A stretch of 64,000 nt of DNA from NCBI RefSeq assembly GCF_013128195.2, contig NZ_CP053452.2, positions 6,696,001 through 6,760,000 on the forward strand, in the 5' to 3' direction. Below are positions 1,766 through 62,902 of the stretch, one piece after another (within the stretch, counting starts at the first letter, position 1; each line of letters starts with the position of its first letter). This DNA is from Frigoriglobus tundricola (lineage in GTDB: Bacteria; Planctomycetota; Planctomycetia; Gemmatales; Gemmataceae). The translations under genes were made by a program, and so were the position numbers. The notes below the pieces were generated by a model. It saw only the letters and a list, made by a program, of their open reading frames with translations. It did not search any database and had not been told where the DNA came from.

Positions 1766-1855
1766 GCCGAACGATGAAGCTCACCGGCCGCGCACGCCGC
1801 GATCGGTGCTGCAAACAACGCATGTGCAGCGGTCCGGTGCAGCGTGGGGTTCGGC
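1766..1855 (-). other. attC site A (90 bp)
   Basis: Integron cassette recombination site, read on the minus strand. R'' is GCCGAAC (1849-1855) and R' is GTTCGGC (1766-1772). The L boxes GCTGCACCGG and CCGGTGAGC pair with one unpaired G. It closes the cassette carrying the gene at 1863-2327 and is the last complete attC before the IS66 insertion. Confidence 0.85.
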
Positions 1856-1862
1856 CTCGGGC

Positions 1863-2327
1863 CTACGGGGCAGCCGGTACCGCGCGGCCCTCTTGATCAT
1901 GTCCCAGACAGAAACGTGCTTGCCCCCGCAGGAAGCCCACGCCGGTCGCCAGCTCGGTGAGGTCGCCGCGGTTCCGCGGATGCTCGAACCAACCGACTAC
2001 CCGCCCGCCTCGCACGAACACCACGAGGACAACCCCTTCGTTGCCCTCGATACTCGTCCGCTCCACCTCGTCCCAGCCGAACCCCAGCGTCTGGTTGACG
2101 TATTCGTGTGGGGTGTACGGATGGAAGAAGTACACTCGCTCCCAATCCGACGGGCCGAATTGGTCGAAGTCCACGACCGCCGGCGCGCTCTCCACCTGCG
2201 CCCCCACGCGCTGAGAGCGCAACTCTGCGATGGCGGCCGACCAAACAGCCGACCCGACCGCGTGTGCCAACCACATGAGGAGCGCCCCCATGAAAACCTC
2301 CAACAGACGGTGTGCGTTCCTTCGCAT
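1863..2327 (-). CDS. Cassette membrane-anchored hypothetical protein
   Basis: A 154-residue protein with an N-terminal hydrophobic segment (about residues 9-32, LLEVFMGALLMWLAHAVG) that should act as a signal anchor, followed by a soluble domain with WERVYFFHPYTPHEYVN and GWFEHPRNRG. The start is the ATG just after attC core GTTCGGC and a GAAGGGC ribosome site, which fixes it against longer frames running back into attC B. The stop lies 7 bp before attC A, as expected for a cassette gene. Family not recognised. Confidence 0.7.
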   Translation of the reverse strand: MRRNAHRLLEVFMGALLMWLAHAVGSAVWSAAIAELRSQRVGAQVESAPAVVDFDQFGPSDWERVYFFHPYTPHEYVNQTLGFGWDEVERTSIEGNEGVVLVVFVRGGRVVGWFEHPRNRGDLTELATGVGFLRGQARFCLGHDQEGRAVPAAP

Positions 2328-2344
2328 GCCGACGCCCTTCAACG

Positions 2345-2434
2345 GCCGAACGATCCAGCTCACCGGCCGCGCACGCCGCGACCGGAGCGGGAAACAACGC
2401 ATGTGCGGCGGTCCGGTGCAGCGCGGGGTTCGGC
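2345..2434 (-). other. attC site B (90 bp)
   Basis: R'' GCCGAAC (2428-2434), R' GTTCGGC (2345-2351), and the paired L boxes with the extra G. It closes the cassette carrying the gene at 2469-2945. Confidence 0.85.
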
Positions 2435-2468
2435 CCGGTGTGGAATACCGGGAAGCGACACTCCGCCG

Positions 2469-2945
2469 TCACTCCCACCACCCCGGTTCGGAGGGTTGGG
2501 AATGGCTGGGCCGCTCCGGGCGCTGCCGGCAGCTCTGGTCAATGTTGGGACTGGGCTCTTCCCCCAACCACTCCCCATCTTCGCCGTACAAGCACGCCGC
2601 GTATGAGCCGAAGAACTCGTCGTAGGTGCCGCCGTCCGTGGTGATCACACTGACATCCTGCAACGCAGCCAAGCGTTGCTGGAACGTACACAGCCTCGCT
2701 ACCGGGGCCAACTCGCGAGCGGCGGTGACGTACTCCAACAGTGCCCCTCGGACAGCTTGGTTCGCGTCGGCGGTACACAACCCGAACTCTTTAGGGAACT
2801 GGTATTCGGCCTCCGGCAAAAGGAACGTGCTGAAGACGGCGGCGGCCATCGCATCGCGGCATTCAGTGTCGTAAATCTCTCCATTGCGCGTGCCGATCGC
2901 TTGAAGGCGTTGGAGCAGTTGTAGCAGAAGTTCCTTCACGACCAC
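2469..2945 (-). CDS. Cassette hypothetical protein, probable GTG start
   Basis: A soluble protein of about 158 residues with a leucine-rich N-terminal helix (KELLLQLLQRLQAIG), a central alpha-helical part and a Ser/Pro-rich tail. No ATG lies between attC C and the conserved region. Two in-frame GTG codons (2945 and 2939) follow the GAGGG of the leader, so a GTG start is likely; I chose the upstream one. No family recognised. It is followed by attC B. Confidence 0.6.
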   Translation of the reverse strand: MVVKELLLQLLQRLQAIGTRNGEIYDTECRDAMAAAVFSTFLLPEAEYQFPKEFGLCTADANQAVRGALLEYVTAARELAPVARLCTFQQRLAALQDVSVITTDGGTYDEFFGSYAACLYGEDGEWLGEEPSPNIDQSCRQRPERPSHSQPSEPGWWE

Positions 2946-2958
2946 GCGCCCTCTTCTT

Positions 2959-3071
2959 GCCGAACGAATAAGCTCACCGGCCCGGCCGCGACTCCAGCGG
3001 CGACAACGACAAGCAGGCAAGCAACGAGAAACAAGTTACGTCGCCGGGTCCGGTGCAGCGGCGGGTTCGGC
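2959..3071 (-). other. attC site C (113 bp, long form)
   Basis: Same R and L boxes as the 90-bp sites but with a longer apical part. R'' is at 3065-3071 and R' at 2959-2965. The SUFU gene upstream reads through R'' and L'' and stops inside the site, at 3036. Confidence 0.85.
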
Positions 3072-3725
3072 GTCTTGGCGATCCAACTCGGTGACCATCA
3101 GGGGATTGCTCCGCCGATGCCCCTCGATGACCTGCTCGCACGTCGCCGCTTTGCTCTTGAGCCGCTCAAGTTCATTGGCAGTGATTCCGAACGCCTGGAT
3201 GAATTCGACGCGGCCGTGTGGAGTGTCGATCGGAGCCAGTGCCGGATCAAGCGCGAATGCCAGCCCGACGAGATCGGTGGGGTAGTCAACCCGGATAGGA
3301 CCGTTGGCCGGTATCCAGTGATACGGCTCGAACCAACGCCCGGACTTGAAGACGTACCGGGCGAGATTGTTGAGCAGGTTGAGTACCCAATTCGGCTCTT
3401 CGGTTGGGGGCAGTGGAGTGGCTAATCGGAACGTCATCTCGAAACCGAACTTGCTGCACTCCGCGCCCACGCTCTCTTCATCGTAGTAGAGCGATGAATA
3501 CCCATAAGTGCAGAAATGCAGATGAGGCTTCCCACCGCTCTCACACTCATAGGCGCTGATGCCATCAAGCGGGTCGGGACCACCAAGAATGTACTTGATG
3601 AGGCTGCCCCAGTGCCGCGGCTCCTGCTCTCCGTATACCTCTCGGAGTCGAGCATCGATGGCGTCCCAGCCGGGTGCGGCGTCGTCGCTTTCGCCATAAC
3701 GCCGCTTGTACTCGGCGATGTCCAT
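3036..3725 (-). CDS. SUFU (suppressor of fused) domain protein
   Basis: A 229-residue protein with the SUFU signature: DPLDGISAYE (51-60), PHLHFCTYGYSSLY (67-80) and the FGFEMTFRL strand (93-101). Bacterial SUFU proteins are known, from comparative genomics, as immunity proteins of polymorphic-toxin systems. No toxin gene is adjacent, so here it would be an orphan immunity gene carried by a cassette. The start is the ATG at 3725 after GGAAGGGC in the cassette leader. The last nine residues (EPAAAPDPAT) are encoded by attC C itself. Confidence 0.88.
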   Translation of the reverse strand: MDIAEYKRRYGESDDAAPGWDAIDARLREVYGEQEPRHWGSLIKYILGGPDPLDGISAYECESGGKPHLHFCTYGYSSLYYDEESVGAECSKFGFEMTFRLATPLPPTEEPNWVLNLLNNLARYVFKSGRWFEPYHWIPANGPIRVDYPTDLVGLAFALDPALAPIDTPHGRVEFIQAFGITANELERLKSKAATCEQVIEGHRRSNPLMVTELDRQDAEPAAAPDPAT

Positions 3726-3742
3726 CGGTATGCCCTTCCGCC

Positions 3743-3832
3743 GCCGAACGATGAAGCTCACCGGCCGCGGACGCCGCGATCCGGTCGGGAAACCAGCTAT
3801 GTGCCGCGGTCCGGTGCAGCGCCGGGTTCGGC
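3743..3832 (-). other. attC site D (90 bp)
   Basis: R'' GCCGAAC (3826-3832), R' GTTCGGC (3743-3749), L boxes as in the other sites. It separates the SUFU cassette from the cassette of the 3841-4314 gene. Confidence 0.85.
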
Positions 3833-3840
3833 CTCTGCGC

Positions 3841-4314
3841 TTACCAAGGGGCAATGAAGGCCCGCACCCATGACTGCTCGACCGGCTGGAACTGCCCCTC
3901 GAACCACTCCGGACCGAAGTCCGGCGGGGACGCTTCCTCCGAGGGCCAGCAGCCGGTGAACTCCCGCCGATACCCTGCGTCGAGCGCGGCCGCCCACTGC
4001 GACTCGGGGACGCGGACCATGTACATGGTGCCCGACACGAATGCGGCGAGCCGAGCGGACCCCGGATCGACCAACGCCGGTGTGACGCTCACGAGGACGC
4101 ATGCCGAATCGGGTAGCCCCTCGCCGAGCTTGTCCCAGACGCGGGAGATCACCTCCGGGTGGTGGCCGAGGCCGACCGCGATCGTCTCCTCATCACCGTA
4201 TCCGGCACGGATGAACTGCTCCGTACTCATCATGAGCGGCAGCGTGTCCACAACCCGTTGCCGAAGGAAGAGGGACACGCGGCGGGTCGCGTCATCGCCG
4301 AGCGCCAGTTCCAC
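3841..4314 (-). CDS. Cassette hypothetical protein, GTG start
   Basis: A 157-residue soluble protein. The GTG start at 4314 follows the leader AGAGGGC. Middle motifs include GYGDEETIAVGLGHHPE and a Trp/Phe-rich C-terminal stretch (DFGPEWFEGQF). No family recognised. The size, acidic character and single-gene cassette setting fit an immunity-type protein, but that is inference only. The stop is 8 bp before attC D. Confidence 0.65.
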   Translation of the reverse strand: MELALGDDATRRVSLFLRQRVVDTLPLMMSTEQFIRAGYGDEETIAVGLGHHPEVISRVWDKLGEGLPDSACVLVSVTPALVDPGSARLAAFVSGTMYMVRVPESQWAAALDAGYRREFTGCWPSEEASPPDFGPEWFEGQFQPVEQSWVRAFIAPW

Positions 4315-4330
4315 CCTGCAGCCCTCTGGT

Positions 4331-4443
4331 GCCGAACGAAATAGCTCACCGGCCCGGCCGCGACACTCGTGTGCGACAACGACGACCGGCGAGCAACGGG
4401 AAACAAGCTACGTGGCCGGGTCCGGTGCAGCGACGGGTTCGGC
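4331..4443 (-). other. attC site E (113 bp, long form)
   Basis: Long-form attC with R'' at 4437-4443 and R' at 4331-4337. The gene upstream terminates inside it, at 4408. Confidence 0.85.
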
Positions 4444-5112
4444 AGGCTTTGCTGCTCGTCGCAGCCGCTGCCTGATCTGCTTGGCAGCCGACTGCTCCAG
4501 CCCCGCCCAACTGCCCCGGAACGGCGGCACGCCCGCGACCACCGAAAGCGAGCCGGCGTCCCCGACGCCCCGGAGGGCGCAGACTGCGGATGCCCGCTGT
4601 ACCTCGGTCAGCTCCAGCGCCAGCAATCGGTGAAGAAACTCTCGTACCTGCTGCTCCACCGCCGGGGTGATGGCCGGCCTACCCTTGAACGATAGCAGGT
4701 GGTTCAACCCGTCAGCCAACCGAACGGCCAACCGCACGTCAGACGCGGGCCGTTCGACGACCGGACCGACGATGGCGAGGAGGGCGGACACGCTCTCCGG
4801 CGTCCGGACCTCCTCCAGCACGCCGATGCAGAACTCGTCTGCCCCACCCGCCTCTCCAGCCATCCGGACCAGACCCGCGTACCCGCCCTCAAGGAGCCGG
4901 CAGACGGTGTCCGCCCACCGGCCGAACGGGACGACGAGTTGGCGGCCCTCGCGGCCGGAGTCCGACCAGCCGTGTTCGCCCTTGAGGGTGCGGAGGAGCG
5001 CGGCGTCGGCCGCGTCGCCGATGGCGGCCACCTTCAGGAGGTGTTCCACCTCCAACGAGTTGTCCGCCGCCTTCCGCGACAGCGTCCGCCGCTGGGCCGC
5101 CGTCAACCCCAT
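4408..5112 (-). CDS. Cassette hypothetical protein, helical repeat-like
   Basis: A 234-residue protein, predominantly helical and Leu/Ala-rich, resembling HEAT-like repeat proteins in composition (for example VSALLAIVGPVVERPASDVRLAVRLADGL), though no family is assigned with confidence. The ATG at 5112 follows AAGAGGGC in the leader. The C-terminus AEPVAAPDPAT is encoded by attC E, as in the SUFU cassette. Confidence 0.68.
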   Translation of the reverse strand: MGLTAAQRRTLSRKAADNSLEVEHLLKVAAIGDAADAALLRTLKGEHGWSDSGREGRQLVVPFGRWADTVCRLLEGGYAGLVRMAGEAGGADEFCIGVLEEVRTPESVSALLAIVGPVVERPASDVRLAVRLADGLNHLLSFKGRPAITPAVEQQVREFLHRLLALELTEVQRASAVCALRGVGDAGSLSVVAGVPPFRGSWAGLEQSAAKQIRQRLRRAAKPAEPVAAPDPAT

Positions 5113-5130
5113 CCGCGAAGCCCTCTTGTG

Positions 5131-5220
5131 GCCGAACGAATAAGCTCACCGGCCGCGCACGCCGCGCTCGGTGCTAGAAACAACGCATGTGCGGCGGTCC
5201 GGTGCAGCGGCGGGTTCGGC
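5131..5220 (-). other. attC site F (90 bp)
   Basis: R'' GCCGAAC (5214-5220), R' GTTCGGC (5131-5137). It is the attC of gene-less cassette copy 1 and is nearly identical to attC J. Confidence 0.85.
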
Positions 5221-5549
5221 CTCCTCGCCGGCCGAGGCGGCTCTGCACCGCCCGCGCCACCGACGCGCATCCGCAGAGCGGGAGCGACACGCCCCGGTGC
5301 GTGCGGCCCACCGCAACGCTCAGTCGGGGCCGCGGGGGCACCGGCCACCTCCCCACCGACCCGCATCCGCTGTGCCCGTGGCACCCACGCGGCGCCGCGG
5401 AGCCGACGCGACGCGCCGAGGTGTGTGCGGCCGCCACATTTTCTCACCGGGCCGCGGGGTCCGCAACCCCCTCGTGCTCCGCGCCCGAGGCCACCGACGC
5501 GAGCGGGCCAGGGGTCTCCGCTCGGGGCGACGCGAAGGAGCTGTCCCCC
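5131..5549 (-). repeat. Gene-less integron cassette, copy 1 of 5
   Basis: A 419-bp unit comprising attC F plus about 330 bp without a credible gene. Inside it a block of about 75 bp is duplicated (5263-5338 and 5388-5459 share GTGYGTGCGGCC and GGGCCGCGGGG). It is almost identical to copy 4 (6968-7386), differing in a handful of bases around 5434-5446. Short minus-strand frames are very Arg/Pro-rich with low-complexity composition. Confidence 0.8.
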
Positions 5550-5639
5550 GCCGAACGTAAAAGCTCACCGGCCGCGCACAACGCGAGCGGTGCTGAAAAC
5601 AACCGATGTGCAGCGGTCCGGTGCAGCGTGTGGTTCGGC
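5550..5639 (-). other. attC site G (90 bp)
   Basis: R'' GCCGAAC (5633-5639), R' GTTCGGC (5550-5556). It closes the membrane-protein cassette 5665-6120. Confidence 0.85.
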
Positions 5640-5664
5640 TCGGCTGCCGTTGCGCCTGCCGACA

Positions 5665-6120
5665 TTACCCCCACAACATCGCAACAGTCGACAACAGGAA
5701 CAACAGCAGGCACAACTTAAAAAGCCAGACAATTGGGAATCGGAAGATGACTGGCCCGCTACGCTCCCATTCTGTGGGTGAAAGGAGTGTCTCGCGCTCA
5801 ATGACCCCCGTTGGCCACGCAACCACCGCCGCGCCCTCCGCGTCGTCGGTCGAGTCCGATAGGTAGTTGGGCAAGAACGAACCGGCCGCTGCCAGCGGGG
5901 CAAGCAGGATGATAGCCCACAGCATGTAGCCGTCGGAAGATAACTCAATATTCGCGACGACAGCTACAGCCAGTACGAAGGAGAAGCCGACCAACACTGG
6001 CGAGCGAAAAACGGCTCCAGCAAGAGCGAAGCCCACGATCCATACAGCCGAACATAAGAACATGCAGGCGAGGGTCTCGACAATCCCTCCCCACCCTGCG
6101 TGTCCAAAGAGCGGTGGCAT
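5665..6120 (-). CDS. Cassette integral membrane protein
   Basis: A 151-residue protein with about four hydrophobic segments: near the N-terminus (ETLACMFLCSAVWIVGFALAG), LVGFSFVLAVAVVAN, MLWAIILLAPLAAAG, and the C-terminal LFKLCLLLFLLSTVAMLWG. The start is well fixed: ATG at 6120, six bases after a perfect AGGAGG that directly follows attC core GTTCGGC. It lies between two copies of the gene-less cassette. Function unknown. Confidence 0.72.
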   Translation of the reverse strand: MPPLFGHAGWGGIVETLACMFLCSAVWIVGFALAGAVFRSPVLVGFSFVLAVAVVANIELSSDGYMLWAIILLAPLAAAGSFLPNYLSDSTDDAEGAAVVAWPTGVIERETLLSPTEWERSGPVIFRFPIVWLFKLCLLLFLLSTVAMLWG

Positions 6121-6131
6121 TAAGGCCTCCT

Positions 6132-6221
6132 GCCGAACGATGAAGCTCACCGGCCGCGCGCGCCACGATGGGTGCTCGAAACCACGCATGTGCAGCGGTC
6201 CGGTGCAGCGGCGGGTTCGGC
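6132..6221 (-). other. attC site H (90 bp)
   Basis: R'' GCCGAAC (6215-6221), R' GTTCGGC (6132-6138). attC of gene-less cassette copy 2. Confidence 0.85.
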
Positions 6222-6550
6222 CTCCTCGCCGGCCTCGGTGGTTCCGCACCGCCCGCGCCACCGTGGCGGATCGGCGGAGCGGATGCGACACGCCCCGGTG
6301 CGTGCGGCCCACCGCAACGCTCAGTCGGGGCCGCGGGGACGGCCGCCACCTCACCCCCGACCCGCATCCGCTGTGCCCGCGGCACCCACGCGGCGCCGCG
6401 GAGCCGACGCGATGCGCCGAGGTGTGTGCGGCCGCCGCATTCTCTGTCCGGGCCGCGGGGTCCGCAACCCCCTCGTGCTCCGCGCCCGAGGCCACCGACG
6501 CGAGCGGGCCAGGGGTCTCCGCTCGGGGCGACGCGGAGGAGCTGTCCCCC
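6132..6550 (-). repeat. Gene-less integron cassette, copy 2 of 5
   Basis: attC H plus a body homologous to copy 1, with scattered substitutions. It contains the same internal duplication and the same lack of a credible gene. Confidence 0.8.
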
Positions 6551-6640
6551 GCCGAACGATGGAGCTCACCGGCCGCGCACGCCGCGATGGGTGCGGGAAA
6601 CCACGCATGTGCAGCGGTCCGGTGCAGCGGCGGGTTCGGC
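6551..6640 (-). other. attC site I (90 bp)
   Basis: R'' GCCGAAC (6634-6640), R' GTTCGGC (6551-6557). attC of gene-less cassette copy 3. Confidence 0.85.
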
Positions 6641-6967
6641 CTCCTCGCCGGCCTCGGCGGTTCCGCACCGCCCGCGCCACCGACGCGCTCCGCGGGGCGG
6701 GAGCGACACGCCCCGGTGCGTGCGGCCCACCGCAACGCTCAGTCGGGGCCGCGGGGACGCCCGCCACCTCACCCCCGACCCGCATCCGCTGTGCCCGCGG
6801 CACACACGCGGCGCCGCGGAGCGGACGCGCCGCGCCGAGGTGTGTGCGGCCGCCGCATTCTCTGTCCGGGCCGCGGGGTCCGCAACCCCCTCGTGCTCCG
6901 CGCCCCGGGCCACCGACGCGGGCGGACCAGGGGCTTCGCTCGGGGTGGCGGGGAGGAGCTGTCCACC
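6551..6967 (-). repeat. Gene-less integron cassette, copy 3 of 5
   Basis: A 417-bp unit homologous to the other copies. It is the most diverged at its minus-strand 5' end (6900-6967). Confidence 0.8.
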
Positions 6968-7057
6968 GCCGAACGAATAAGCTCACCGGCCGCGCACGCC
7001 GCGCTCGGTGCTAGAAACAACGCATGTGCGGCGGTCCGGTGCAGCGGCGGGTTCGGC
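6968..7057 (-). other. attC site J (90 bp)
   Basis: R'' GCCGAAC (7051-7057), R' GTTCGGC (6968-6974). attC of gene-less cassette copy 4; matches attC F. Confidence 0.85.
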
Positions 7058-7386
7058 CTCCTCGCCGGCCGAGGCGGCTCTGCACCGCCCGCGCCACCGA
7101 CGCGCATCCGCAGAGCGGGAGCGACACGCCCCGGTGCGTGCGGCCCACCGCAACGCTCAGTCGGGGCCGCGGGGGCACCGGCCACCTCCCCACCGACCCG
7201 CATCCGCTGTGCCCGTGGCACCCACGCGGCGCCGCGGAGCCGACGCGACGCGCCGAGGTGTGTGCGGCCGCCGCATTCTCTGTCCGGGCCGCGGGGTCCG
7301 CAACCCCCTCGTGCTCCGCGCCCGAGGCCACCGACGCGAGCGGGCCAGGGGTCTCCGCTCGGGGCGACGCGAAGGAGCTGTCCCCC
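6968..7386 (-). repeat. Gene-less integron cassette, copy 4 of 5
   Basis: A 419-bp unit nearly identical to copy 1 (5131-5549), although two other copies and a gene cassette lie between them. That is the pattern expected from cassette excision and re-insertion rather than simple tandem duplication. Confidence 0.8.
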
Positions 7387-7476
7387 GCCGAACGATGAAG
7401 CTCACCGGCCGCGCACGCCGCGATGGGTGCGGGAAACAACCGATGTGCGGCGGTCCGGTGCAGCGGCGGGTTCGGC
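7387..7476 (-). other. attC site K (90 bp)
   Basis: R'' GCCGAAC (7470-7476), R' GTTCGGC (7387-7393). attC of gene-less cassette copy 5. Confidence 0.85.
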
Positions 7477-7806
7477 CTCCTCGCCGGCTTCGGCGGTTCC
7501 GCGCCGCCCGCGCCACCGACGCGCATCCGCGGAGCGGGAGCGACACGTCGCCGTGTGTGCGGCCCACCGCTTATCTCCATCGTGGCCGCGGGGACGCCCG
7601 CCACCTCACTCCCGACCCGCATCCGCTGTGCCCGCGGCACCCACGCGGTGTCGCGGAGCGGACGCGATGCGCCGAGGTGTGTGCGGCCGCCGCATTCTCG
7701 GTCCGGGCCGCGGGGTCCGCAACCCCCTCGTGCCCCGCGCCCCGGGCCACCGACGCGAGCGGGCCAGGGGTCTCCGCTCGGGGCGGCGCGGAGGAGCTGT
7801 GACACC
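7387..7806 (-). repeat. Gene-less integron cassette, copy 5 of 5
   Basis: A 420-bp unit, the copy closest to intI. It differs from the others near 7555-7580, where the CAACGCTCAGTC element is replaced. Confidence 0.8.
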
Positions 7807-7896
7807 GCCGAACGAAATAGCTCACCGGCCGCGCACGCTGCGATCCGGTCACCCAACTATGCAGGTGCTGCGGTTCGGTGCAGCGCCAGGTTTGGC
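7807..7896 (-). other. attC site L (90 bp, variant R'')
   Basis: R'' is GCCAAAC (7890-7896) rather than GCCGAAC, which fits the classical RYYYAAC consensus. R' is GTTCGGC (7807-7813). L boxes are less perfect than in the other sites. It closes the cassette of gene 7920-8363. Confidence 0.75.
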
Positions 7897-7919
7897 TCGT
7901 GGCATCGGCCGATTGTGGC

Positions 7920-8363
7920 TCAGCGCGCGAGCGCGAACCGCCACTCCTCCCAGATCGAGTCCGACCGGAAATGTATGCCCGATACGACACCGCCGGGTCC
8001 AAAGGTGACGATCAGATCACGACTATCGTCGTCATCGAAGTCCACCTCCGCCCACGCGACCTGGTCAGCCGGCGGGAAATCGGTGAAATCCCAGTCGAAG
8101 TAGTGGCCAAATTTGCGGCCGTCGTGCGTCCGCCCGTCCGCGTATAGTCGCGGGTTGTCCCAGCCCCGCTCCCGACTGAGGTACGCAGCACGAATCCGCG
8201 CCACGGCTTCCTCTTGTGACATGCCGACGCGGAGTTCGGCGCACACAACGCCCAGTGAGCCGGGCAACTCCGGCCGACGCGATCCGAGGATACCGACCGC
8301 GGCAATCATGGCCAACGCAGTAACCAACCAAGCCCTCGGACGCTCCCATACCGATTTGCGCAC
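7920..8363 (-). CDS. Cassette membrane-anchored protein, BamE/SmpA-like motif
   Basis: A 147-residue protein with an N-terminal membrane segment (LVTALAMIAAVGIL, about residues 13-26). An outer segment then contains LRVGMSQEEAVARIRAAY, similar to the helix pair at the start of BamE/SmpA-type domains, followed by a beta-rich part (DDDDSRDLIVTFGPGGVVSG). The GTG start at 8363 sits six bases after a perfect AGGAGG next to attC M. The BamE resemblance is short and only suggestive. Confidence 0.65.
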   Translation of the reverse strand: MRKSVWERPRAWLVTALAMIAAVGILGSRRPELPGSLGVVCAELRVGMSQEEAVARIRAAYLSRERGWDNPRLYADGRTHDGRKFGHYFDWDFTDFPPADQVAWAEVDFDDDDSRDLIVTFGPGGVVSGIHFRSDSIWEEWRFALAR

Positions 8364-8378
8364 GCACCACCTCCTGTG

Positions 8379-8468
8379 GCCGAACGATCAAGCTCACCGG
8401 CCGCGCCCCACGCGCTCGGTGCCACAAACAAGCTATGTGCGGCGGTCCGGTGCAGCGCCCGGTTCGGC
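8379..8468 (-). other. attC site M (90 bp), first cassette
   Basis: R'' GCCGAAC (8462-8468), R' GTTCGGC (8379-8385). It closes the cassette nearest attI. Confidence 0.85.
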
Positions 8469-9055: not shown

Positions 9056-9190
9056 GCCGAACTCAGTATTAGCTCGCGAGGGCCGACCGCCGGCTCCTCG
9101 CGGGTTTGGCATGCTATCACCGGCCCTGGGCCGGTGATAGCATGCCAAACCCGCATCCTAACACGGTAACGGCCGCTGTGCGACCGCCGG
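9056..9190 (-). other. attI-like primary integration site
   Basis: The region between the intI stop codon and the first cassette. The cassette junction core GTTCGGC is at 9056-9062, preceded on the minus strand by an AATACTGA stretch. Similar GTATTRG-containing sequence flanks the cores at 13118 and 62595, which is why I call these attI rather than attC: there is no matching R''/L'' hairpin partner. It lies 3' of intI, the reverse of class 1 integrons. Confidence 0.7.
9100..9154. terminator. Perfect 27-bp inverted repeat inside attI region
   Basis: Arms 9100-9126 and 9128-9154 are perfectly complementary around a single central base. The arms are mixed in composition (GGTTTGGCATGCTATCACC) and are not followed by a T run. 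It could be a bidirectional terminator between intI and the array, or a structural part of attI. The sequence alone cannot decide. Confidence 0.5.
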
Positions 9191-10183
9191 TCACATCGCG
9201 TCCAGCGGGCTGGTCACCCCGCGCCCGCCTCGGTTCAGCACGTGCGTGTAGATCATCGTCGTCTCCACGCTCTCGTGCCCGAGTAGCTCCTGCACCGTGC
9301 GGATGTCCGTGCCCGCCTCGATCAGGTGCGTCGCGAAACTGTGACGCAGGGTGTGCGCGGTGGCCGGCTTCTTCACCCCCGCCGCACGCACCGCCGCCGT
9401 CACCGCCCGGCTCACCGCCGACTCGTGGTAGTGGTGCCGGCGCTCCGCCCCGGAGCGCGGGTCCACCGACCGCCGGGACGCCGGGAACACGTACTGCCAC
9501 GCCCATTCCGCCGCCGCCGCCGGGTACTTCACCGCCACCGCCGACGGCAGGTGCACCCGACCGAACCCGGCCGCCAGGTCCGCGGCGTGCAGCGCCCGCG
9601 CCGCGGCCAACTGGTCCCGGAGCGCCGGCGCCACCGCCGCCGGCAGCACCGTCACCCGGTCCTTGTTCCCCTTCCCCTCCCGGATCGTAATCTGGTTCAG
9701 CCCGAAGTCAATGTCTTTCACCCGCAACCGCAAACACTCCATCAGCCGCGCGCCCGTTCCGTACAGCGCCCGGCCGATCAACCCGTTCACCCCCTCCAGC
9801 CGCCCCAGCACCGCCCGCACCTCCTCGCGCGTCAGCACCACCGGCAGCCGCTTCGGCCGGTTCGCCCGGACCACCCGCAGTTGGTCCAGCGGGCGGTCCA
9901 GCACCGCGCCGTACAGGAACAGCAGCGCGCACAGCGCCTGGTTCTGCGTCGAGGCCGCCACGTTCCGCACCACCGCCAGGTGCGTCAGGAACGCGTTCAC
10001 CTCCCGCTCGGCCATAGAACTCGGGTGGCGGATGCCGTGGTACCGGATGAACCGCTCGGCCCACTCGGCGTACGCGTCCTCGGTGCGGATGCTGTAGTGC
10101 CGCACCCGGCACGCGTGGCGGAGCCGGTCGAGCAGCTTGGGCGGCGGGGGCGGCGGGAGCGGCGGGGGCGGCGGGAGCGACAT
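9191..10183 (-). CDS. intI: Integron integrase (tyrosine recombinase)
   Basis: Site-specific recombinase that inserts and excises gene cassettes by attI x attC and attC x attC recombination. The 330-residue protein has a proline-rich N-terminus (4-15), a SAM-like core-binding domain (about 16-105) and a tyrosine-recombinase catalytic domain. Catalytic residues visible are R146 (GTGARLME), the lysine of the EGKGNKDRV strand, H277/R280 ([11 protein letters not shown]), H303 ([10 protein letters not shown]) and nucleophile Y312 ([13 protein letters not shown]). The insertion [10 protein letters not shown]...WAWQYVFPA...DPRSG...RRHH (about 211-252) is the IntI-specific extra domain that contacts the attC extrahelical bases, and it separates this from phage or XerCD enzymes. 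It reads in the same direction as the cassettes. The frame is intact. Confidence 0.96.
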
Positions 10184-57321: not shown

Positions 57322-57411
57322 GTCGAACGTAAAAGCCCACCGGCCGCGCGCGCCGCGGGACGGTCACCGAAGTACGCATGTGTAGCGGACCGGTGCGGCG
57401 TGAGGTTCGGC
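57322..57411 (-). other. attC site Y (90 bp)
   Basis: R' GTTCGAC (57322-57328), R'' GCCGAAC (57405-57411), L boxes close to consensus. Closes the cassette that holds the IS-split DUF6882 gene. Confidence 0.75.
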
Positions 57412-57793: not shown

Positions 57794-59272
57794 CTGTACT
57801 TTCCGCGAACTTATGGTCAGTTGGCGTGGATCGCGGGGTTGGGAGTAGACGAGTGCCGGTCCGTCCGGGAGGATGGCGTTACCACACGACCTCCCACCCC
57901 GAACGGACGCGGCCATGCCATCGTCGCATACCCCGGCCCCTCGATGCCCGTGGTTTTCCGTGCTCGCCAAGGCCCTGGACCCGCGGTCCGGGCGGCGGCT
58001 CGCGGCCCTGTACCTGGGTCTCATCTTGGCCGGCGGGCGGAAGACGCTCAGCCGTTGGATTCGGGCCGCCGGGCTGTCGAACCAATACCGCCGGTGTTAC
58101 GCCACGGCGGCCGCCGTCGGCCGCCGCACCGAGGGTGTCGCCACGCGCCTGCTGGTGCAGGTGGTCAAGCCCTTGGTGGGGGGCGCGCCCCGGCTGGTCT
58201 TGGCCCTCGACGACACCCCGACGGAGCGGCACGGGCCGAAGGTTCAAGGGGCCGGGGTGCATCACAACCCGACCCCGGGGCCGGCCGGGAGCCCGTTCGT
58301 GTACGGGCATGTGTGGGTGGTTCTCGGGTTGTTGGTTACCCACCCGCTCGGGGGCCTGATCGCCTTGCCCCTGTTGGCTCGGCTGTACATCCGCAAAAAG
58401 GACCTCGGGGCCATCCCCGCGCCGGACCGGCCCGAGTTCGCGACCAAGTTGGAGATGGCCGTGGCGCTGGTGCGGTGGGCCCACGGGTGGCTCAAGATGT
58501 GGGCCAAGCCGGTGTGGGTGGTGGCCGACGGGGCGTACGCCAAGGCCCCGGTGCTCAAGCCCCTGCTCGCGTTGGGAGTGACGATGGTGAGTCGGCTCCG
58601 CAAGGACGCGGCCCTGTGCTCGGTGCCCGAGCCGGAGCCGAAGCGGCGCGGGCCCCGGCGCGTGTACGGGACGCAGCGGGTCTCGCTGGCCAAGCGGGCC
58701 GGCCAGAAGGGCGGGTGGGCCACCGGCACGTTTACCCTGTACGGGAAAGCGGTGGAGAAGAGGTACAAGACGTTCGAGGCCACGTGGCGCCCCGCCGGGG
58801 GCCCGATCCGGGTCGTGCTGGTGGACGAGCCCAAGGGATGGGTCGCGTTCTTCTGCACCGACACCACCGCGACCGTGGCCGACATCCTGAGCCTCGTCGC
58901 CGACCGGTTCAGCCTGGAAACCTGTTTTCGGGATCTCAAACAGGTCGTTGGCGCCGGGCACCAGCAGGTGCGTGGGGTGGCGTCGAACGTGGGGTGCTTT
59001 CACCTGTGTGCATGGGCGTTCACAATGACCGAAGCGTGGGCCTGGGACCGGAAGGCCGAGGACCTGGTGGCCCATCGGGCCGCGTCCCCGTGGGACGATC
59101 CCGAGCGGCGCCCGAGCCACGCGGACAAGCGCCGGGCGTGGCAGCGGGAGTTGCTGGCCGAGGAAATTCAGGCCGTTGTGGGTGAGCACCACGACCCGGT
59201 GCAAATTCACAACCTCGCACGGCGGTGCCTCGACCTCGCCGCGTAAACGCTATAATTTCGCGGAAAGTACAG
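57794..59272 (+). mobile_element. IS4-superfamily (IS701-like) element
   Basis: Inverted ends CTGTACTTTCCGCGAA with one mismatch in the next five bases, and a 6-bp target duplication CAAGAA (57788-57793, 59273-59278). 1479 bp with a single transposase gene. Confidence 0.88.
57873..59246 (+). CDS. IS701-like DDE transposase
   Basis: A 457-residue transposase with D113 in LALDDTPTERHG, the second Asp in VVADGAYAKAP, and the YREK-like glutamate in SLETCFRDLKQVVGAGHQQVR. ATG at 57873. IS701-type enzymes belong to the IS4 clan; the DDTPT box supports this subgroup. Frame intact, and the clean inverted ends and target duplication indicate recent movement. Confidence 0.85.
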   Translation: MALPHDLPPRTDAAMPSSHTPAPRCPWFSVLAKALDPRSGRRLAALYLGLILAGGRKTLSRWIRAAGLSNQYRRCYATAAAVGRRTEGVATRLLVQVVKPLVGGAPRLVLALDDTPTERHGPKVQGAGVHHNPTPGPAGSPFVYGHVWVVLGLLVTHPLGGLIALPLLARLYIRKKDLGAIPAPDRPEFATKLEMAVALVRWAHGWLKMWAKPVWVVADGAYAKAPVLKPLLALGVTMVSRLRKDAALCSVPEPEPKRRGPRRVYGTQRVSLAKRAGQKGGWATGTFTLYGKAVEKRYKTFEATWRPAGGPIRVVLVDEPKGWVAFFCTDTTATVADILSLVADRFSLETCFRDLKQVVGAGHQQVRGVASNVGCFHLCAWAFTMTEAWAWDRKAEDLVAHRAASPWDDPERRPSHADKRRAWQRELLAEEIQAVVGEHHDPVQIHNLARRCLDLAA

Positions 59273-59934
59273 CAAGAAGGAAAGCTATCCCACCATCGTA
59301 TGGGGCCGCGAAGTAGGCGTCAGCCGTGCCGATGCCCACTGCGACCAACGCGAAGAAGTGGCCAGTAAGCCCGTTCAGTGGCTGCTCTGCCGTGGTCAAT
59401 TCTGGGATCGAATGCTTCTCCCCGTATTTTCGCATCCGATTGGCCGACTTGAGGAGCTTCGAGGGGATGCCACTATCCTTGTTGCCCCAAGCCCACAGCC
59501 ACGACGAACTCTTTGTCGCTTGCGTGCCGAGGACTTGGATCGGCCACGACTGTTCACCAACATCCTGCTGAAGTTTGATAATCAGTTTGCCTTCGGAGAG
59601 ATCAACGCTCCACTGTTCGTTATGAAACGAGGTGTCGAATAAGAACTGCCTTTCCAAGGCCGCGAGGACCGACCGCCGGTAAAGCGTGAGCAATGGCTCG
59701 CTCACTCTCGGTAAGATAACCATTTTGCTTCCCCGTGAACGGGTGCCAAACCGGTTCGCGTTGCTGTTTAACTCGCCCGAATAGACAGCGGTGTCCACTC
59801 TCGGGCGGGGGTGTTCCACGTCCAGACGATGCTCCCACTCCCTGACTCGGCCGGGAATGTAACGTACATACGGAACTGAGTCGGTAGCCACGGCGAAATG
59901 CCGGTTCGGGCATGGTACTTAAATTCCACAACTA

Positions 59935-61098
59935 GTGTCCTGAGTCGAAAATTCGGTAGATAACCTTGCGCCGGGTCTCCTGGGCCGGTAGGGTAGGGCA
60001 AAGGAGACCCTAATGGCGCGCCCCAAACCAGCCCTCATTCTGTCCGATGACGAGCGCCAGAAGCTCACCACCTGGGCCAACCGGCCCAAGAGCACCCAAC
60101 GACTCGCGCTCCGCGCGCGGATCGTCCTGGCCTGTGCCGACGAGACCAGCAACAAGGCCGTCGCCTCCCAACTCGGGGTCTGTGCGGCCACCGTGGGCAC
60201 CTGGCGGAACCGGTTCGTCGCCCAGCGACTCGACGGCCTGGTCGATGAGCCCCGGCCCGGCGCCCCGCGCACGGTCACGGATGCCGACGTCGAGCGGGTG
60301 GTCACCGCCACCCTGGAGACCAAGCCCAAAGCCGCCACCCACTGGAGCACCCGGGGCATGGCCCAGGCCACCGGGATGTCGCAATCGACCATCAGTCGGA
60401 TCTGGCGCACGTTCGAGCTGAAGCCGCACCGGGCCGACACGTTCAAGCTGTCCACCGACCCGTACTTCGTGGAGAAGGTCCGGGACGTGGTCGGGTTGTA
60501 CCTGGCCCCACCGGACCGGGCCATCGTCCTGTCGGTGGACGAGAAGAGCCAGGTCCAGGCGCTGGACCGCACCCAGCCCGTCCTGCCGATGACCCCGGCC
60601 CAGGTCGAGCGGGGCACCCACGACTACGTGCGGCACGGCACCACGTCGCTGTTCGCGGCCCTGGACGTGGCCACCGGGAAGGTGATCGGGACGTGCCACC
60701 GGCGGCACCGGCACCAGGAGTTCCTGAAGTTCCTCGACCACGTGGATGCCACCCTACCCCGGGAACCGGGCGTGAGCGTGCACATCGTGTTGGACAACTA
60801 TGCGACCCACAAGACGCCGGCCGTCAAGCGCTGGTTCGTGCGGCACCCCGAGTACCACCTGCACTTCATCCCGACCAGCAGCTCGTGGCTCAACCAGGTC
60901 GAGCGGTTCTTCGCCGAGATCACGGAGAAGCGGATCCGCCGCGGGGTGTTCAAAAGTGTCCACGCCCTCGAGCAGGCGATCACCGAGTACCTGGCCGAAC
61001 ACAATGCCGACCCGAAGCCGTTCGCCTGGGTCGCCGACGCCGATTCCATCCTCGACCGCATCAAGAGGGTTTGCGAACGGACTTCCGACTCAGGACAC
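59935..61098 (+). mobile_element. IS630-family element, third type (1164 bp)
   Basis: Inverted ends GTGTCCTGAGTCG, flanked by TA at 59933-59934 and 61099-61100. Not related to the other two IS630 types in this window beyond family level. Confidence 0.9.
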
Positions 61099-61101
61099 TA
61101 G
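60013..61101 (+). CDS. IS630 family transposase, intact
   Basis: A 362-residue transposase. Helix-turn-helix parts ([22 protein letters not shown] and the [13 protein letters not shown] region). The DDE core has [24 protein letters not shown] and [16 protein letters not shown]. The TAG stop (61099-61101) is built from the target-site TA plus the next G, so the element relies on its target duplication to end the frame. ATG at 60013. Confidence 0.92.
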
Positions 61102-61446: not shown

Positions 61447-61536
61447 GCCGAACGAAACAGGTCTTCGGCCGCGCACTCAGCGACACGGTCACCGAACAAC
61501 CGATGTGCAGCGGTCCGGTGCCGCGCCGGGTTAAGC
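61447..61536 (-). other. attC site Z (90 bp, canonical R'')
   Basis: R'' is GCTTAAC (61530-61536), a perfect RYYYAAC; R' is GTTCGGC (61447-61453). The R'' does not pair with this R' but pairs exactly with GTTAAGC at the other end of the same cassette (62041-62047). Confidence 0.8.
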
Positions 61537-62028
61537 GATTTTGCCGCCGTGCGATTGGATGCGGGCCAGTATGTACTCCCGCAACTCCGGCTGCAACCCT
61601 TCGACGGGAAGTGTCGAATAGCCCCAGCCGTGTGTGCCGAAGAACAGGAGCCACACCTTGGGGAAGCACCATACGGCCGACACGCTCTTCCAGTGGAGCT
61701 CGACCGCGCCCAGGTCCGAGCGCGTGGCGAACGACTCGTCGCCGAAGCTCCACCGCACGGTCGGGTCACTCATTGCTCTGAACTTGGCGACGGACGCGCG
61801 GGTATAAGCCCAGCCGACCGCAATCACCAGCAGCGCCAAGCCCGAGCCGAGTGCGGCCAGAGCCGCCGCGTACCGCCAGTCCACGCCCAGTCCCAGGCAG
61901 GCCACCAACGCGCCCACCACAGCGACGCTGGCAACGATCAAGTCGCGGCGGGCGAAGCGCACAAGGAAGCACCAAGCCGCATCCCTGACCAGCCGCTCCG
62001 AGTATCGAACAACGACCTCAGTAGCCAT
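61531..62028 (-). CDS. Cassette YcxB-like membrane protein
   Basis: A 165-residue protein with two hydrophobic segments (DLIVASVAVVGALVACLGLG and AAALAALGSGLALLVIAVGWA). The C-terminal domain FGDESFATRSDLGAVELHWKSVSAVWCFPKVWLLFFG follows the YcxB-like pattern (sensor-like PH fold after two helices). ATG at 62028 after AAGAGGA beside attC AA. The stop lies inside R'' of attC Z. Confidence 0.75.
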   Translation of the reverse strand: MATEVVVRYSERLVRDAAWCFLVRFARRDLIVASVAVVGALVACLGLGVDWRYAAALAALGSGLALLVIAVGWAYTRASVAKFRAMSDPTVRWSFGDESFATRSDLGAVELHWKSVSAVWCFPKVWLLFFGTHGWGYSTLPVEGLQPELREYILARIQSHGGKIA

Positions 62029-62040
62029 GAGTCCTCTTAC

Positions 62041-62116
62041 GCTTAACAACTAACTCACCGGCCGCGCACACCGCGACCGGTGCGGGAAACAAGCCATGTG
62101 CCGCGTGGGGTTCGGC
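62041..62116 (-). other. attC site AA (76 bp, L'' deleted)
   Basis: R' GTTAAGC (62041-62047), R'' GCCGAAC (62110-62116). The L' side and apex are normal, but about 14 bases including L'' are missing, so this site should no longer recombine. Confidence 0.7.
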
Positions 62117-62132: not shown

Positions 62133-62231
62133 ACCTAACACCACGTCCACCAGCCCGCAACCGCGCATGGGCGCCGGAGCGCGCCGAGAAACATATTACT
62201 CGGCCGGGTTCGCGACAGCGCCGGTGTCGGC
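62133..62231 (-). other. Degenerate attC BB
   Basis: R''-like GCCGACA (62225-62231), an apical GAAACATATTAC segment as in long attC sites, and a possible R' at ACCTAAC (62133-62139). The gene at 62196 stops inside it. Confidence 0.45.
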
Positions 62232-62573
62232 CTCTTGCTCAGACCGGCGAGCCGACTCCCATGCCCGCCTCCAGCCGCGCCCACCGAACCATCCATCGAT
62301 CCAGAACCCGACCCATGCCCCGAACCCGACCATCGCCCCGCTGAGGCCTAACACAGAGGCCCCAAGCCAAGCTTCGTCGTCCCCGCCAGGAGACGCCCCT
62401 CCGGAGCCGAACTTAACCGCCACGAACAGCGCGATAGCCGCCGTGCAAGCGCCGACCATCACCCCGCCCTGGCCCCGGGCTCGAGCCGCTCGCGTTTCGA
62501 AGGGGGCGGGTGGCGCGGTGCCGGTCTCTTCAGCGAGCGGCGGGGATTGGCGCGGAGGGAGCGGAAGAAACAT
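62196..62573 (-). CDS. Cassette membrane protein
   Basis: A 125-residue protein with a Pro/Ala-rich N-terminus, two membrane segments (GVMVGACTAAIALFVAVKFG and LGASVLGLSGAMVGFGAWVGFWI) and a basic tail (GRGWRRAWESARRSE). ATG at 62573 after AAGGGAG, directly following the attI-like core at 62595. It is therefore the first cassette of the decayed integron. Function unknown. Confidence 0.65.
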   Translation of the reverse strand: MFLPLPPRQSPPLAEETGTAPPAPFETRAARARGQGGVMVGACTAAIALFVAVKFGSGGASPGGDDEAWLGASVLGLSGAMVGFGAWVGFWIDGWFGGRGWRRAWESARRSEQEADTGAVANPAE

Positions 62574-62594
62574 CGCGAGCCGCTCCCTTCTGTG

Positions 62595-62625
62595 GCCCAA
62601 AAACGTATTGGTTTGCCTCGGCCGG
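62595..62625 (-). other. attI-like site of decayed integron
   Basis: Core-like TTTGGGC (62595-62601) flanked by CGTATTGG (62604-62611), as at 13118 and similar to 9067. It lies between an intI remnant and a cassette gene, the same order as 9056-10183. Confidence 0.55.
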
Positions 62626-62784: not shown

Positions 62785-62902
62785 GGTTCCCGGCGTCCTG
62801 GGGGCTCTGCACCCCGCGCCCGCCCCGACCCAGAACATGGGTGTGAATCATCGTCGTCTCCAGACGCGCGTGCCCCAGGCGCTCCCGTACGGCTCGGATG
62901 AC
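62785..62902 (-). pseudogene. intI: Remnant of a second intI
   Basis: About 39 codons matching the C-terminus of Int[21 protein letters not shown] and [18 protein letters not shown] against [36 protein letters not shown] in the intact gene. The catalytic tyrosine is replaced by histidine (MIHTHV). The upstream nine tenths of the gene are absent. From 62903 to 63073 no gene is seen. Confidence 0.85.

Follow-up and report, generated by a model that had tools for sequence, protein, structure and literature searches.

A YcxB-like gene cassette in Frigoriglobus tundricola whose own two ends are complementary, as an excised circle would predict

An integrase-mediated circular cassette intermediate is well established for integrons. 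A cassette's own attC is defined in this circular form (PMC2674596), and crossover occurs between the G and the TT of the site (PMC3518468). Most classical cassettes have 9 to 11 consecutive complementary nucleotides (PMC2727003). Planctomycete integrons and a matching attC model are already on record, as are inverted integrases (PMC2426708, PMC8352920). The inverted integrases were noted as an IntI subclade (PMC8352920), and an atypical integrase orientation was described in Treponema (PMC3607928). Our literature search found no article combining Gemmata, integron, and attC.

The window analyzed here is a stretch of 64,000 nt from Frigoriglobus tundricola (GCF_013128195.2, NZ_CP053452.2, positions 6,696,001 to 6,760,000, forward strand). 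Toward its left end is an integron with these parts:

9191 to 10183, minus strand: intact integron integrase IntI, 330 aa (TIGR02249, 449.9 bits against a cut-off of 265, full-length match 1-315)
9056 to 9062, minus strand: attI-like core GTTCGGC (putative), downstream of intI at the start of the intact array
1766 to 8468, minus strand: 13 well-preserved attC sites, arrayed downstream of intI and extending left beyond the window

The IntI reading frame contains no stops. All 13 attC sites beside it lie on the minus strand and score 59 to 113 bits with a covariance model. The putative attI-like core was recognized by aligning GTTCGGC in the intI 3' flanks of this genome, of an integrase remnant, and of a congener. 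This arrangement resembles the sedentary chromosomal integrons with an inverted integrase, such as that of Treponema (PMC3607928, PMC8352920): a TIGR02249 IntI is oriented as its cassettes are, a putative attI-like core and then the cassettes follow the 3' end of intI, and the attC sites have paired arms. It differs from them in its Gemmataceae host, in its near-invariant GTTCGGC/GCCGAAC boxes, which depart from GTTRRRY at position 4, and in the dispersal of attC over more than 10 genome sites. The same inverted platform, with intI in the orientation of its cassettes, was seen in the relatives checked (loci L036, L037, and L045).

A second cassette region lies at the right end of the window. 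Its features are as follows:

61453 to 62046, minus strand: YcxB-like gene cassette of 594 bp (ACID definition), beginning with TTAAGC and ending with the last G ahead of the next cassette
61531 to 62028, minus strand: open reading frame of the cassette, 165 aa, with hydrophobic stretches and then a C-terminal YcxB-like region
62041 to 62047, minus strand: start box GTTAAGC, the R' of the upstream attC
61530 to 61536, minus strand: R'' box GCTTAAC of the cassette's own attC, the exact reverse complement of the start box
61447 to 61453, minus strand: R' box GTTCGGC, all of which except the first G is part of the next (downstream) cassette
61447 to 61536, minus strand: attC of the YcxB-like cassette in its linear form, 90 nt, 85.7 bits with covariance model R1, which includes this site among its 11 training sequences
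62041 to 62116, minus strand: upstream attC, 76 nt, R'' GCCGAAC, 36.7 bits (E of 1e-6), outside the training set
57322 to 57411, minus strand: next recognizable attC downstream, 86.6 bits, in the training set

The cassette limits were set by the G^TT cut sites in the R' boxes of both flanking attC sites. Read on the minus strand, the order is TTAAGC, AGAGG, ATG, 165 codons, GCT TAA C, the attC, and G. The ATG (at 62028) lies 12 nt after TTAAGC, AGAGG is a ribosome-binding motif, and the TAA stop codon lies within the R'' box. A sense gene near the cassette start is the ordinary layout of a cassette. Like YcxB proteins (PF14317), the product has hydrophobic stretches followed by a C-terminal region that covers most of the YcxB model. 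However, its match (E of 0.0042, 17.2 bits) is below the Pfam gathering cut-off of 23.3 bits, and we therefore call it YcxB-like only.

Model R1 was built from 11 local attC sites. Across these, 96% of arm cells are paired, compared with 25 to 36% when the L'' and L' arms are slid against each other. Extrahelical bases are defined as lying on the R''-L'' arm (PMC2727003). Unpaired extra stem bases are on that arm in the minus reading alone, and this holds for the attC of the YcxB-like cassette. Together with the covariance scores, this places the canonical attC strand on the minus strand. Therefore, the R'' and R' labels in a first-pass annotation of this DNA were mirrored; what it had said about complementarity is symmetric and survives. 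A plus-strand reading was rejected. It scored far lower (20.8 versus 110.1 bits on the minus strand for the site at 7387 to 7476), and it put the extrahelical bases on the wrong arm.

Minimum-free-energy folding of the isolated 90-nt strand gave no clean attC hairpin (z of 0.35 for the linear plus strand). The attC of the YcxB-like cassette had a folding energy of -18.6 kcal/mol in its circular form and -16.7 kcal/mol in its linear form. Folding energy was excluded as evidence, since the signal from freely folded single sites was not strong. Rfam and tRNA scans found no matches. Genome-wide, attC sites fall into two size classes of about 90 and about 113 nt; the larger class has an extended inner stem and, it seems, just one extrahelical base.

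The boxes at the two ends of the YcxB-like cassette match each other better than they match their neighbors. On the plus strand, GTTAAGC is at 61530 to 61536 and GCTTAAC is at 62041 to 62047, and their attC partners are GCCGAAC (61447 to 61453) and GTTCGGC (62110 to 62116), respectively. Each linear site pairs at 5 of 7 positions, leaving 2 mismatches with its linear neighbor, whereas the cassette's own start box and own R'' are exact reverse complements (7 of 7). The first-pass annotation had noticed that GCTTAAC mismatches the adjoining GTTCGGC yet complements GTTAAGC at the far end, and both coordinates and sequence agree. It had also proposed that circularizing the cassette would make a perfect attC. 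Excision in silico did so: it produced a circle site of GCTTAAC/GTTAAGC and an empty site of GCCGAAC/GTTCGGC, both complementary at 7 of 7 positions. The base just beyond each box is complementary as well, which extends the own-end pairing to 8 bp. As in classical 59-base elements (PMC2674596), the R'' corresponds to the opening bases of the cassette it belongs to and not to those of the neighbor.

This covariation is what recombination through a circle would leave behind, and we infer such recombination as the origin of the pattern. In the excised circle, the attC would have read GCTTAAC...GTTAAGC, its two boxes pairing perfectly. The integron integrase would have cut its R' between G and TT, and the circle would have been joined to a resident site with the box GTTCGGC. 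After insertion, the cassette would have kept its own TTAAGC at the start, with the resident TTCGGC at the opposite end. We consider it very probable that the YcxB-like element is a gene cassette of an integron and was at one time an excised circle. The covariation would be inherited evidence of past circularity, the circle itself being deduced from sequence. The idea that covarying own ends are the signature of a circular intermediate gains support from this pairing pattern and from the integron parts present, namely an IntI whose score far exceeds the TIGR02249 cut-off, a putative attI-like core, attC sites that have both paired arms and extrahelical bases, and a cassette gene in sense orientation.

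How rare the compensated pair is bears on whether it might have arisen by chance. A motif-based scan of this genome and its congeners and relatives yielded 454 attC-like sites with an intact AAC..GTT. The R'' was GCCGAAC in 440 of these and the R' was GTTCGGC in 432, although the R' was picked from four offsets by its closeness to the consensus, which biases that count toward the consensus. GCTTAAC and GTTAAGC occurred once each, at the two ends of the same YcxB-like cassette. Both ends had the consensus boxes GTTCGGC/GCCGAAC in 391 of the 408 cassettes with intact ends, and the YcxB-like cassette had the sole compensated nonconsensus pair. When cassette ends were permuted, the P values were 0.0021 (this pair) and 0.0094 (any compensated variant), treating the 408 cassettes as independent although they are not fully so.

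By chance, the pattern would be two independent double mutations of resident boxes that happened to be complementary. Variant boxes are not rare (14 R'' and 22 R' among the 454 sites), and the compensated pair is a single event. All other variants are uncompensated and mostly single-base changes, which suggests that mutation after insertion is common. However, the permutation probabilities, the additional complementary base beyond the boxes, and the general occurrence of own-end pairing (see below) argue against an accident, which we regard as highly improbable.

Templated repair or gene conversion between inverted copies after insertion, with no circle, would also make the two boxes agree. 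In favor, the boxes form an inverted repeat within a single cassette, with a spacing of about 500 bp. However, the easiest target would be the nearby partner within the same attC, and those pairs are the ones that mismatch. Furthermore, the known integrase reaction accounts for both ends without extra steps. Conversion is therefore an exceedingly improbable source of the pattern.

Covariation at the level of the boxes is visible in one cassette only, because nearly all boxes in this system are identical. This contrasts with classical cassettes, as does the extension of pairing beyond the boxes by only about 1 nt. Because the boxes are almost fixed, we examined the base just outside them in 192 cassette families, with each blastn cluster contributing a single cassette. 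In 37% of families, the base preceding R'' is complementary to the one that follows the start box of that same cassette, compared with 25.4 ± 2.9% when shuffled; 1 of 5,000 shuffles reached 37%. Pairing with the next cassette was 25%. The signal is confined to own ends and is one base deep. We also applied a separate heuristic attC finder to integrase-flanking loci of other bacteria, mostly proteobacteria, which gave 31 to 46 cassettes. Own ends were perfect in 41 to 52%, compared with 18 to 22% for the linear site and 22 to 28% when shuffled. Own-end pairing thus generalizes across Gemmata arrays and to independent integrons.

The mechanism itself is known, and the YcxB-like cassette is a sound new instance of it in a large, little-described integron system. 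Covariation provides a sequence-only test that separates a working integron from a passive repeat, and it also fixes cassette boundaries.

The start box GTTAAGC fits the GTTRRRY consensus, which has a purine at position 4, whereas the resident GTTCGGC does not. A consensus-type box amid off-consensus resident boxes may be the mark of an immigrant. The cassette might have been imported from a lineage with GTTRRRY-type boxes and captured by a Gemmata integrase, which would refine the past-circle explanation and is not exclusive of it. Resident-type boxes are near-invariant across Gemmataceae sites, and GCTTAAC with a Gemmata-type L'' was found at this site alone in 95 family genomes; both are in favor. 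However, the remainder of the attC is of the Gemmata type, so the donor would need to be a close relative with altered boxes, and no such donor is among the genomes searched. We regard import as possible but doubtful. Tentatively, Gemmataceae boxes could have drifted to a private, near-fixed GTTCGGC, in which case the YcxB-like cassette would be a consensus-box immigrant that records both a transfer across lineages and the tolerance of the integrase for a different box; this scenario is likewise on the unlikely side.

The YcxB-like gene is single copy in its own genome. No close relative of its protein was found in viral contigs, genome contigs, plasmids, or the 95 family and 392 phylum genomes searched. 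Homologues elsewhere are distant (26 to 34% identical), and no attC was evident when their flanks were read by eye.

The cassette seems to be part of a second platform, now decayed, at the window's right end, in which it is preceded by these features:

62789 to 62902, minus strand: C-terminal fragment of a second integron integrase (TIGR02249 positions 278-313, 36.6 bits), with a translation of 38 letters
62196 to 62600, minus strand: open reading frame of 134 aa with hydrophobic stretches, in the first cassette of the dead platform

The order is the integrase fragment, the 134-aa cassette, the 76-nt attC, the YcxB-like cassette, and last a stretch interrupted by transposases. The 134-aa frame matched nothing in NCBIfam and nothing significantly in Pfam. 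Compared with the 90-nt sites (alignment A2), the upstream attC is short of about 13 bp, which are missing on its L'' side between two GTGC repeats. Given this shortened L'' and an adjacent integrase reduced to a fragment, the cassette would by now be largely frozen and is probably immobile. The intact IntI is in the same window, 52 kb away, and could still act on it in trans.

Downstream of the YcxB-like cassette, an IS630-like element (59932 to 61101) with 34-nt imperfect terminal repeats and a DDE_3 transposase (60013 to 61101) is inserted in the cassette region. A DUF6882 gene between two transposases (59250 to 59891, minus strand) is probably cassette cargo.

The covariation is also an anchor point for a large system of integrons among Gemmata-type planctomycetes. 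A genome-wide covariance scan found at least 98 attC-like matches at an E of ≤0.001 (about 100 sites) in more than 10 clusters; 150 candidates were scored, so 98 is a lower bound. An integron integrase scored over the cut-off in 35 of the 95 family genomes. In the regions examined in relatives, most of the 395 further matches came from one congener (G011, 9.0 Mb; loci L044 to L054). This congener carries several hundred attC sites, grouped into at least five clusters, on a single chromosome together with one integrase, and it would rank among very large integron systems. One blastn-linked family makes up 142 of the 408 cassettes (window 1766 to 8468 and loci L015, L016, and L044 to L054). Its members are commonly about 330 to 358 bp. 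Two translated examples had no obvious cassette gene and contained internal repeat-like stretches. This family looks ORF-less and is repeated through the arrays of at least two species.
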